Positions 36,746 to 40,604 of a stretch of 64,000 nt of DNA are shown piece after piece; within the stretch, counting starts at the first letter, position 1; every line of letters begins with the position of its first letter. The notes under the pieces were generated by a model, which was not told the DNA's origin, did not search any database, and saw nothing but the letters and a program-made list of their open reading frames with translations. A program made the position numbers and the translations under genes. Source of the DNA: Tateyamaria omphalii (lineage in GTDB: Bacteria > Pseudomonadota > Alphaproteobacteria > Rhodobacterales > Rhodobacteraceae); NCBI RefSeq assembly GCF_014651375.1, contig NZ_BMWT01000003.1, forward strand, positions 1 to 64,000. Direction: 5' to 3'.

Positions 36746-37300
36746 ATGAGATACGTGATTTTGTCCCTTCTTTTGTCCACGCCCGCATGGGCGGACAATT
36801 GTCCGCCAGCGCCGGATATTTCAGTCGAACTGCAAGCGCTGATCGGCGATGCGAACGCTGCGCCGGATGAACGCAACGGACGGGTTGCGTCCGACCAGAT
36901 GTGGCAATTGTGGCTGCGTGCGCCCGATGAAGCTGCACAAGAAATTCTGGATCGTGGGATGCGCCAACGCAGCAGTTTCGACTTTGCTGGTGCCTATGAC
37001 AGTTTTGATGCGCTTGTGACGTACTGTCCGGACTACGCCGAAGGATACAATCAACGCGCATTCATCAGTTTCCTGCGGGAGGACTTTACCGCTGCGCTAG
37101 TTGATCTGGATCGGGCGCTGGACCTGTCTCCTGATCATGTAGGTGCACAGTCTGGACGTGCGTTGGCGCTGATGAACCTTGGACGACGGGACGAAGCGCG
37201 GACGCAGCTTGAGAAGGCACTCGCTAACAATCCGTGGCTGTCCGAACGTCACTTGCTGGCCGATGGCGCTCCACTCGGCCCGGGAGGGCAGAAACTGTAG
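36746..37300 (+). CDS. Exported TPR-repeat protein
   Basis: A 184-residue protein with a signal peptide (STPAWADN; cleavage near residue 16) and at least two tetratricopeptide units from about residue 75 to 160 (AGAYDSFDALVTYCPDYAEGYN... and ALVDLDRALDLSPDHVGA..., each about 34 residues). TPR proteins act as periplasmic scaffolds; the partner is unknown. A single pair of cysteines (DNCPP and TYCPD) may bond. It stands alone between the Lrp regulator and the tRNA-Leu gene. Confidence 0.7.
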   Translation: MRYVILSLLLSTPAWADNCPPAPDISVELQALIGDANAAPDERNGRVASDQMWQLWLRAPDEAAQEILDRGMRQRSSFDFAGAYDSFDALVTYCPDYAEGYNQRAFISFLREDFTAALVDLDRALDLSPDHVGAQSGRALALMNLGRRDEARTQLEKALANNPWLSERHLLADGAPLGPGGQKL

Positions 37301-37454: not shown

Positions 37455-37782
37455 GCGGACGTGGTGGAATCGGTAGACACAAGAGACTTAAACCATGTTT
37501 TGAGTGCCCCGAGGGAAACCTCGGGAGTAGAACTGCTCAAATTCGGGGAAAGCTAACGACCACACTGGTCCATGCCAATCCCGAGCCAAGCCGACGAGGT
37601 GGGTGATTTCGTCGGAAGGTGTAGAGACTAGACGGGCAGCACCTAAGACCGGGCAACCGGAGAGGGTGAAGGGATAGTCCAGACCACAAACGGCGCGATA
37701 GCGTCGGCGGCGAAAGCCGTAGCAGGTAAGAAAATCTCTCGATCGTATGATCGTGCGGGTTCGAGTCCCGCCGTCCGCACCA
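37455..37782 (+). tRNA. tRNA-Leu(UAA) interrupted by a group I intron
   Basis: Exon 1 is 37455-37489 and exon 2 is 37731-37782, including an encoded CCA. Joined, they give an 87-base class II tRNA with acceptor stem GCGGACG/CGTCCGC, the D-arm characteristic of bacterial tRNA-Leu, anticodon stem AGAGA/TCTCT with loop CUUAAAA (anticodon UAA), a long variable arm with a GATC/GATC stem, and a standard T-arm (GGTTCGAGTCC). The 241-base insertion falls between U34 and A35 of the anticodon, the position used by tRNA-Leu(UAA) introns of cyanobacteria and plastids. Without splicing the tRNA could not function. Confidence 0.93.
37490..37730 (+). ncRNA. Self-splicing group I intron in the anticodon loop
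   Basis: The 241-base insertion follows a U and ends in G, as group I introns do. It has a P2-type hairpin CCCGAGG-GAAA-CCTCGGG (37508-37525), the core Q/R-like segments around 37545-37600, and a P7 pairing of GACTA (37626-37630) with TAGTC (37675-37679) inside the characteristic AGAGACTAGACGGGC and ATAGTCC contexts. It also has a P8-like CCGG-GCAA-CCGG and a P9-like GGC-GAAA-GCC. No homing-endonuclease frame fits inside. The layout resembles the small IC3 subgroup. Confidence 0.9.
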
Positions 37783-38027: not shown

Positions 38028-40604
38028 ATGCAAGTTACCGGTCGCAATTTGCCTGTTCTGCCTCGCCTGAACACTTTGATGGCGAAAGCAGTTTTGATGA
38101 CGGCGTTGGTCACGCTATCGGTTCTTGCCGCAATGGTGTCCTTTGACTACTCAGCGCAGCGCAGCCTCCTCCATTCCGAATTGGAGGCCCGTGCGCAAAA
38201 CGTCACTGAACTTCTTGCCATGCAAATGGGCGGGTCCATCAAGTTTGCAAATGATGTCGCCGTTTCCGAGATAACCGAAAGTGTTATTGCTGCCGCCGAG
38301 CCCGAAGTGCAGGGCGCAATGGTTGTCGCCTCGGATGGAAGACAAATGTTTGCGAGTTCTGGAATGGATGACCAGGCACTGGAGGCGCAGTCTCTTGCGG
38401 TGAACGCGATTGAGACGGGACAGGTGTCGGCAGCAGAGAGCGGATTGATGGTCGCATATCCGGTGATGTTCGGCCCGGAAGCAACTGTTGCCGGGGCGGT
38501 TGTCACAACCTGGGACGATGCGCAGATGATCGCCTTACTCGCGCGCAATCAGATCATGGCCATGGCTGTAGCAGCGGCGGTTTTCATTTTCGCGATGGCG
38601 CTGATCATTACATACACATGGTACGACGTGTCACGCCCATTGAACGGGCTTGCCGACGCCATGTCCGCAATTGCACGAAAAGAATACCAAACCGATGTGA
38701 GCGGAACCAAGCGTGGTGATGAAATCGGAAACATGGCGCGACGTTTGGACGGGTTCAGGCTGGCATTGGCCAAAGCGACGAAAGGCCAACGCGAAAGTGC
38801 ATTCAAGGGCGCAGCTTTTGAAGGGTCCACAGCCGCGATGATGATGGTGGACGAAACCCACCAGATCATCTTCGTCAACCCGTCCTGCGCTGCGCTGTTG
38901 AACAGCCTGTTGCCGGATCTTGAAACGTTGTGGCCTGGGGTTCGGTGCGACGCCTGGATTGGGTCCAATTTGAGCGACATGAAAGACGTCGTGGGACTGC
39001 TCGACGTTTTGAGTCACCCGGACGGTCCTCAAGACAACAGTATGGTTCTACGGATCGGTGAACAGCATGTGCGTATCAATCTGAGCCAAACGAAGGATCA
39101 TATGGGGCGAACCATCGGTGCCGTTGTTGAATGGTCGGATCAGACCACTGCGCATCGCGATGCAGCCCTGCTGGCGGGAATTGACAGCACGCAGATGCGC
39201 ATTGAATTCGACAATGTTGGCCAATGCTCTGATGTGAACCAGGTCGCCGCACGGCGTTTGGGTTTCGAACCGTCTGCTTTGACAAATGTAACGCTGGGCA
39301 ACTTGTTCGCTGCCGACCAGCCTGATCCGAAAATCCCTGGCGATGTTCTCTCTGCGTTGCGGAAAGGACAAAACTTACACGGTAAAATACATCTCCTGTC
39401 TCACAGTGGCCAACGCCTGGTCATTGATGGCGGTTTCGTCTGTGTCCGTACGGAAGGTGCTGAGATTGAACGCTGCATCTTGATTGGTACGGATGTGACC
39501 GACGCCGAGATGGAAGTGCAGGATGCGCGAGATCACCAAGCAAAAATTGCGCGTGAGCAGGCCGTGGTTGTCATGGCCTTGGGGCAAGGGTTGCAGGGGT
39601 TGTCTGAAGGCAACTTAACCACCGAACTGACAGACCCGTTTCCGGAGGACTATGAGAAACTGCGGCTGGATTTCAACGGCGCACTGATCAGTTTGCGCAA
39701 TGCGATGGCGACAGTGATGCACAACGTGAACTCCATTCGCAGTGAAACAACCGAGATCACAAGTGCGGCCGATGACCTGTCTCGTCGCACAGAACGACAA
39801 GCGGCCACCCTGGAAGAGACAGCAGCAGCGTTGGATGAACTCACCTCTTCCGTGCGATCCGCTGCCGAAGGTGCAGATGCGGCAAGCAAAACGTCAGAGC
39901 ATGCAAAGCGCAACGCGCAGCAGGGCGGCGACATCGCACGCCAGGCGGTGAGTGCCATGGACGGTATCAAAACATCGTCTCAAGAAATTTCCAAGATCAC
40001 TTCAGTGATCGACGACATAGCGTTCCAAACAAACCTGCTGGCGCTCAATGCAGGCGTCGAAGCCGCCCGCGCCGGAGAGGCAGGTCGCGGATTTGCAGTT
40101 GTTGCGACCGAGGTGCGCGCTCTGGCTCAACGATCCTCAGATGCGGCACGGGAAATCAATACGCTCATCTCTACCAGCGCTGAACAGGTTCAACACGGCG
40201 TCGAACTGGTTGATCGCACGGGGACTGCCCTCTCGTCCATCGTATCTTCCGTGGCTGACATCTCCGAACGGATGATTGAGATCGCGACATCTGCCCGCCA
40301 ACAATCCGCGGGTTTGAATGAGATCAACGCGGCCGTGAACGAACTTGACCAAGTCACGCAGCAGAATGCCGCAATGTTTGAGGAAACGACTGCAGCCAGC
40401 CATGCTTTGACGGGCGAAGCTGACACACTTGCGGACGCCGTCGCGCAATTCAGAATTGGATCGGAGCGGCACCGGGACAAGCAGTCTTCGGTCACCTGCA
40501 ACGTCCCGTCAGAGGCAAATCCGGCGCTGGCCGTGAATGGTGCCCTTGCGATTGAGTTTCCGAAGCATGACGTGTCTGATCCAACAGGATGGGAAGAGTT
40601 TTAG
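38028..40604 (+). CDS. Methyl-accepting chemotaxis protein with PAS domains
   Basis: An 858-residue chemoreceptor: transmembrane helix at about 17-39, periplasmic sensor domain of about 130 residues, second helix about 171-196, HAMP about 197-250, two PAS-like domains (about 262-360 and 385-500), then the MCP signalling coiled coil (about 560-830). The hairpin tip [19 protein letters not shown] (about 663) is intact and binds CheA/CheW. The protein ends in GWEEF, matching the C-terminal pentapeptide that tethers CheR/CheB. No other che genes are in the window. PAS domains suggest redox or energy sensing besides a periplasmic ligand. Confidence 0.92.

Follow-up and report, generated by a model that had tools for sequence, protein, structure and literature searches.

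An intron-split tRNA-Leu(UAA) gene of Tateyamaria omphalii and its apparent displacement of the native gene

How does a tRNA gene split within its anticodon by a group I intron come to stand at a locus where most members of the genus carry an intact gene? The question is raised by Tateyamaria omphalii, whose tRNA-Leu(UAA) gene, at 37455-37782 on the forward strand of the stretch of DNA analysed (64,000 nucleotides; hereafter the window), is interrupted between U34 and A35 by a 241-nt intron. The kind of intron is already known, and what the case offers is an unusually clear apparent displacement of a tRNA gene. It matters because a probably essential, ribozyme-dependent decoding gene is apparently exchanged as a whole among distant bacteria; a genus with and without the intron makes such displacement directly testable.

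The split gene and its intron

When introns were allowed, ARAGORN called a tRNA-Leu(UAA) with the intron i(36,241), and the joined exons gave a complete 87-nt tRNA-Leu(UAA) fold. An earlier interpretation from the letters alone (the sequence-only reading) had joined 37455-37489 to 37731-37782 around a 241-base group I insertion at U34/A35. Its coordinates were exact, and the identification was borne out by ARAGORN, by the Rfam model RF00028 and by covariation. The gene and its neighbours are arranged as follows:

36746..37300, + strand: TPR-protein gene, 5' side (Pfam); neighbour in 18 of 18 congeners fetched
37455..37489, + strand: 5' exon of tRNA-Leu(UAA), 35 nt, ending at U34 (ARAGORN -i, spliced-exon call, sequence)
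37490..37730, + strand: group I intron, 241 nt, last base G (RF00028, 48.0 bits, E 4e-11; model R1)
37731..37782, + strand: 3' exon of tRNA-Leu(UAA), CCA encoded (ARAGORN)
38028..40604, + strand: chemoreceptor (MCP) gene, 3' side (Pfam); seen in 14 of 18 congeners fetched

The insertion in this gene is a group I intron. It falls exactly between anticodon bases 1 and 2, and RF00028 matched 37480-37697 from end to end (model positions 1-253), with E-values of 4e-11 in 651 bases and 6.8e-11 across the whole 4.75-Mb genome, where it was the sole match with E <= 0.001. The covariance check proposed beforehand thus returned the expected match but not formal membership, since 48.0 bits lies under the Rfam gathering score of 50, and an Rfam scan of the window at that threshold gave no match. 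Related introns also score close to this cut-off, and two of the eight related loci scanned exceed 50 bits (Carnimonas L155, 50.9; G693, 50.2). The strongest match in the relatives' scan, 76.2 bits at L032 (G043), runs into a contig end. Our own model R1 gave the intron 173.4 bits, a score to be read with the intron's place in R1's training set in mind. That the resemblance is beyond chance follows from similar introns at the same site in 3 of 19 congeners searched and in the more distant G033 and G045. With introns disallowed, ARAGORN made no call in the window; as default ARAGORN and the Rfam cut-off both miss it, such genes point to a gap in tRNA inventories. According to passages of PMC8450103, tRNAscan-SE 2.0 is not designed for detecting these introns.

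The fold comprises the following elements:

37502..37504, + strand: GAG, the internal guide that forms P1 with exon CUU, with U.G at the 5' splice site (sequence, and P1 in the RF00028 alignment)
37508..37525, + strand: P2 hairpin with GAAA loop (sequence; alignment A2, outside the pairing score)
37533..37538, + strand: P3 5' strand (pairing in 99.8% of cells; two-sided changes in 4 of 6 pairs)
37626..37630, + strand: P7 5' strand GACTA (covariation; P7 left out of model fitting)
37634..37639, + strand: P3 3' strand (pairing/covariation alignment)
37640..37668, + strand: P8 hairpin (basal helix with pairing in 99.5% of cells and two-sided changes in 3 of 4 pairs)
37675..37679, + strand: P7 3' strand TAGTC (covariation alignment)
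37706..37719, + strand: P9 hairpin with GAAA loop, borders approximate (sequence; alignment A2, outside the pairing score)

For the covariation analysis, a covariance model was built from eight relatives with P7 omitted, and a search of 100 chosen loci, a set that excluded viral loci and some named ones, yielded 101 aligned matches, of which the eight training rows fit the model by construction. In the named helices (P3-P8), 98.0% of 3404 cells were paired, compared with 82.5% after shuffling and 30-47% when slid by 1-3 columns. Cells changed on both sides numbered 476, against 131 in the shuffles, and 24 of 36 pairs had such changes. Because the aligned introns are kin, the counts from shuffling cannot be read as probabilities; relatedness is kept in the slid control. 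The P7 proposed from the letters, which had no part in the fitting, was paired in 99.6% of cells over the 101 matches, its fifth pair being AU in 75, GC in 12, CG in 9 and UA in 5 and unpaired in 0 of 101. The proposed P8 also held up in its basal helix. The splice sites have the usual form, with a U before the 5' splice site, pairing with the guide G, and a terminal G. Wider counts add little to this: the guide motif, present in 168 of 177 cases, is a loose four-letter match, and the parser itself demands the terminal G.

The intron is of the bacterial tRNA-intron family and resembles its IC3 subgroup. This subgroup is defined by a specific core and by the tetraloop contacts L2-P8 and L9-P5, and GAAA loops L2 and L9 are both seen here, as read from the sequence rather than from a subgroup model. 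The tRNA-Ile intron of Azoarcus is an IC3 intron with the same motifs and a likewise small size, but it sits in another tRNA and in another bacterial class; crystal structures of it are mentioned in passages of PMC3984707.

Two kinds of tRNA-Leu(UAA) gene at a shared locus

Within the genus, the intron is present in 4 of 20 genomes (the window's, G002, G003 and G004), and the gene is intronless in the other 16. Over 61 genomes, the intronless pattern matched in 37, the four carriers together with G033 and G045 have the intron, and 18 are explained by neither search. The locus is nevertheless the same: besides the neighbours listed above, a proline-dehydrogenase gene lies near tRNA-Leu in 17 of 18 congeners fetched, a set that includes the three other carriers and leaves G011 outside, and in which contig ends clip some stretches. 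In G010, G012 and G009 (L088, L084 and L091), the chemoreceptor neighbour is displaced or unseen in the stretch, and in Roseobacter cerasinus an integrase-family gene (L244:2145-3185) starts about 70 nt past the split tRNA-Leu, as if the locus were an integration hot spot.

The exons do not follow this conservation of place. Those of the carriers are 99-100% identical to one another, whereas the window exons agree with 15 of the 16 intronless congeners (G011 unread) at only 63-69 of 85-86 positions, the differences being spread over the tRNA. Comparison thus establishes the gene, its insertion site, its core structure, and an exon difference at a shared locus, and from these we infer displacement as an event, together with its mechanism. 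We consider it probable, at roughly 0.85, that a foreign tRNA-Leu(UAA) gene, already split by a family-type group I intron and presumably spliced, took over the locus of the intronless native gene. The intron would have arrived inside this whole foreign gene rather than hopping alone. In a tree of 18 genomes based on neighbouring proteins, which left out G019 (one gene on its contig), G011, and G045 and G033 (other genera), at least two changes of intron state are needed, with the window's genome, G002 and G004 in a single clade and G003 among the intronless G005, G001 and G008 (100/100). Replacement would most simply have happened twice in the genus. The upstream flank of G003 is native-like right to the first tRNA base, as in its intronless relatives, and the upstream DNA of the window, G002 and G004 differs from this native-like flank, so the borders of the replaced segment vary.

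Matching exons were found well outside the genus. Hoeflea, of another order, has exons identical to the window's over all 85 bases compared, Roseobacter cerasinus and two further alphaproteobacterial records match at 84 of 85, and the gammaproteobacterium Carnimonas at 81 of 85. The Hoeflea intron is 91% identical to that of G693, of the window's family (support 99/99), and 81% to the window intron. None of the eight genomes reached via L142, L153, L154, L155, L158, L188, L235 and L244 matched the intronless gene pattern. At least one of the window's neighbour genes also adjoins the split gene in G693, in R. cerasinus and in both further records. As a candidate marker of the foreign gene we tried an 18-mer of the anticodon stem, which occurred in 16 of 394 family genomes, at 17 places: 2 with the intron (window and G693), 13 in intronless genes of another type (L388 being cut by the contig after AAAATC), 1 cut too early and 1 partial copy. 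As the 18-mer lies mostly in intronless genes of the other type, it was rejected, and the foreign gene is instead recognised by its exons as a complete set.

In Carnimonas, the split gene stands in a Gly-Cys-Leu tRNA row, as in each of the 15 loci fetched from its family (15 genes read, from 21 matches in 41 genomes). Its exons agree with those 15 genes at 58-68 of 85-88 positions. With the window they agree at 81 of 85, and none of the family genes read comes closer than 68 of 85. Carnimonas is therefore more likely to have been the recipient, although the comparison stops short of proof. Twelve of the 15 family genes start with GCCCGGA and three (L400-L402) with GCGG, and the acceptor stem of L402 is near that of Carnimonas.

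The Hoeflea gene lies between native flanks, inverted. Upstream of it, about 0.9 kb of DNA is unmatched in the loci of the relatives; this segment contains an ORF that looks lipoprotein-like by eye and had no Pfam match. Among its relatives, the intronless pattern was found in 9 of 16 genomes, from which 8 loci were fetched and 7 compared: the flanking genes are opposite relative to the tRNA in 7 of 7, and both flanks align in 4 of 7. One relative, L412, carries an intronless, roseobacter-type tRNA-Leu(UAA) at the Hoeflea locus, an apparent swap without an intron. It follows that tRNA genes are exchanged without introns too, and the intron may perhaps be a passenger on tRNA-gene exchange. Taken together, foreign exons at shared loci in the genus, Hoeflea and Carnimonas make whole-gene replacement in place probable, more than once and possibly by different routes. 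The mechanism would be recombination with incoming DNA, for which conjugative plasmids are plausible carriers, and similar swaps would have taken place outside the genus, one of them in a gammaproteobacterium. The Hoeflea inversion with its unmatched DNA is not accounted for by simple gene conversion, and this counts against the proposal.

An unlikely but still serious alternative is intron homing with co-conversion, in which the native gene was cleaved by a trans-acting endonuclease and the intron, together with flanking exon, was copied in during repair. The flank of G003, native-like as far as the tRNA, fits this. The intron, however, has 241 nt overall and thus at most 80 codons, to our knowledge too few for any known endonuclease gene. 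This agrees with the sequence-only reading, which saw no endonuclease gene in it, and by its size the intron does not qualify as a mobile homing intron that encodes its own endonuclease. The inversion in Hoeflea and the exchange of an intronless gene in L412 also speak against homing.

Vertical inheritance with loss, one of two origins that the sequence-only reading had offered, fits the genus poorly in its simple form and strikes us as improbable. Under it, the intron and the unusual exons would be ancestral and lost in most members. The clade of the window, G002 and G004 and the syntenic locus agree with this, and the 18-genome tree accommodates one gain and two losses, but only if each loss restored native-type exons, and for this demand we rejected a single origin in the genus. 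The position of G003 among intronless genomes and the match of the carriers' exons to Hoeflea, R. cerasinus and others, at a locus where the intronless genes differ, are likewise hard to reconcile with descent.

Whole-gene replacement also seems to have a precedent in cyanobacteria, for which Rudi and others reportedly described, in 2002, recombination of the entire tRNA-Leu(UAA) locus. They are said to have proposed recombination of a whole intron-bearing tRNA gene, as we do; here it would extend across alphaproteobacterial orders and into a gammaproteobacterium. In Gammaproteobacteria, Vepritskiy and others are said to have reported, in 2002, a tRNA-Leu(UAA) intron in a deep-subsurface isolate. 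Putative group I introns are also described in tRNA-Leu(UAA) of Beggiatoa and Thiomargarita (PMC4853749). By description, these gammaproteobacterial introns interrupt the same gene as in the window, and unlike here, the passages of that account do not mention whole-gene displacement.

Intron family, cyanobacterial relatives and splicing

Passages of PMC3984707 name tRNA and rRNA genes as the main hosts of bacterial group I introns, and those in tRNA genes are ascribed to cyanobacteria and to few or some alpha- and betaproteobacteria (passages of PMC4033280 and PMC11408192). A 21-base core pattern with one mismatch occurred in 40 of 385 alphaproteobacterial genomes (43 places), and its reversed control in 0 of 385. 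The alphaproteobacterial hosts were tRNA-Leu(UAA), Arg(CCU), Lys(CUU), Lys(UUU), Thr(GGU) and Leu(CAA), called with ARAGORN; as it splits most of the Lys, Thr and Leu(CAA) cases wrongly, borders and anticodons were fixed by eye. The loci read by eye are:

tRNA-Lys(CUU): L109-L112
tRNA-Lys(UUU): L119, L129, L038
tRNA-Thr(GGU): L121, L122, L133
tRNA-Leu(CAA): L113-L115, L120

A longer pattern, over named genomes, matched at least 118 stretches in alpha-, beta- and gammaproteobacteria, cyanobacteria, acidobacteria, Bacteroidota and one Binatota, and among the matches listed, tRNA-Leu(UAA) was parsed in at least 107 loci, one of them with two.

The tRNA-Arg(CCU) intron known from alphaproteobacteria is that of the Agrobacterium type. 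The sequence-only reading was right that alphaproteobacterial introns occur in tRNA-Arg(CCU), but they are not confined to it, and tRNA-Leu(UAA) hosts are common. The tRNA-Arg(CCU) introns have a closely similar core, and 6 of the 7 in the 191-row tree described below fall, with the window intron, in a group of 110 rows; they differ from the window intron in tRNA and in loop position. In titles and the first lines of abstracts, a partial coverage of the literature, we found no account of alphaproteobacterial tRNA-Leu introns or of the plasmid copy described below.

The other origin considered beforehand, a cyanobacterium-like donor, is disfavoured by the trees, and we regard transfer from a cyanobacterium to this lineage as very improbable. 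The tRNA-Leu(UAA) group I introns that passages of PMC4033280 describe as belonging to cyanobacteria and plastids share with the window's the gene and the core motifs and, in the cyanobacterial ones fetched, the U34/A35 site. They nevertheless form a separate branch. In a quick tree of 191 rows, from which viral introns identical to earlier rows and the duplicates L123 and L126 had been dropped, 17 cyanobacterial introns and one gammaproteobacterial row (by elimination a Tatlockia bin) grouped with support 100, and the window intron was nested among mostly alphaproteobacterial introns. A smaller tree again separated the cyanobacterial group (100/99), without the window intron, and the exons are alphaproteobacterial in type. 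In favour of such a donor, the AU test did not reject the window's group beside the cyanobacterial one (p-AU 0.42); nor did it reject the window's eight-row group as a clade (p 0.47), which the free tree breaks. The phylogeny asked for in the sequence-only reading thus set the cyanobacterial introns apart and supported the nearer branching, including the exact position of the window intron, weakly.

The split gene is probably the only tRNA-Leu(UAA) gene, the condition under which the sequence-only reading held splicing to be essential. RF00005 found 39 other tRNAs in the genome, none with a UAA anticodon, in an inventory that is incomplete (tRNA-Tyr is absent as well), and a genome search for the intronless tRNA-Leu(UAA) pattern gave 0 matches. 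UUA makes up 11 of 3952 codons in eight window genes. Since UUA requires a UAA anticodon and no other UAA gene was found, splicing is probably essential. It would take place at U34/A35: in the folded precursor the guide GAG would be paired with exon CUU, a guanosine lodged in P7 would attack after U34, and U34 would then attack after the terminal G, joining U34 to A35 in a mature tRNA that reads UUA. That the intron is a decayed or non-splicing relic, as its sub-threshold RF00028 score might hint, is most improbable given complete exons, an intact core, the use of UUA with no second UAA gene found, and related introns that score near the cut-off too.

Copies on plasmids and in viral sequences

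With the window gene as query, 1272 plasmid records matched at 60-80% identity, and 3 of 50,697 phage records did so, none of them for more than 80% of its length, so no near-identical copy was found in either set. The plasmid pCTX-M3 (L418:6001-6299) carries a related split tRNA-Leu gene, and this copy is matched by 1280 plasmid records, of which 1273 are at >=99% identity, 1257 have >=80% covered and 935 are predicted conjugative. Among 5426 complete E. coli genomes, 635 also have it (>=80% covered in 624), at 589 places on plasmids and 81 on chromosomes. Its intron groups with that of Gemmobacter (support 94; 193 of 220 aligned positions). The pCTX-M3 copy is not the donor of the window gene; that it is widespread on conjugative plasmids and falls with alphaproteobacterial introns suggests movement of such genes from one class to another. 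As far as these comparisons of sequence go, whole intron-bearing genes seem to move between bacteria as ready-made units. Whether split tRNA-Leu(UAA) genes are mobile units that repeatedly displace the native gene in place across orders and classes, by way of conjugative plasmids and phages, is a more tentative proposition, to which we would give slightly less than even odds.

In 6 of 6 records inspected (L418, L419, L421, L423, L424 and L425), an aac(3)-II gene lies 0.65-2.1 kb downstream of the copy, and the alphaproteobacterial-type split tRNA-Leu may thus mark the source of that DNA segment. No listed feature covers the plasmid tRNA; as the PLSDB tables omit RNA genes, only one RefSeq record shows it to be unannotated. 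Another copy was found on a seventh plasmid, from Bradyrhizobium, where trb transfer genes lie close by and no resistance gene is listed.

Phage introns known by 2014 were in protein genes, according to passages of PMC3984707. Among 120 stretches fetched from IMG/VR, 49 contain tRNA-Leu(UAA)-type genes split by introns of this kind (L265, L281, L289, L297, L313 and others). Baseplate hub, rIIA or tail fibre proteins lie nearby in several of these loci, and 9 of 10 proteins scanned had a PHROG match. Finally, in the Gordonia phage Daredevil, an isolate (L422), a core match with no annotated feature beneath it reads as an intron-split tRNA-Lys-like gene near the phage's integrase gene.
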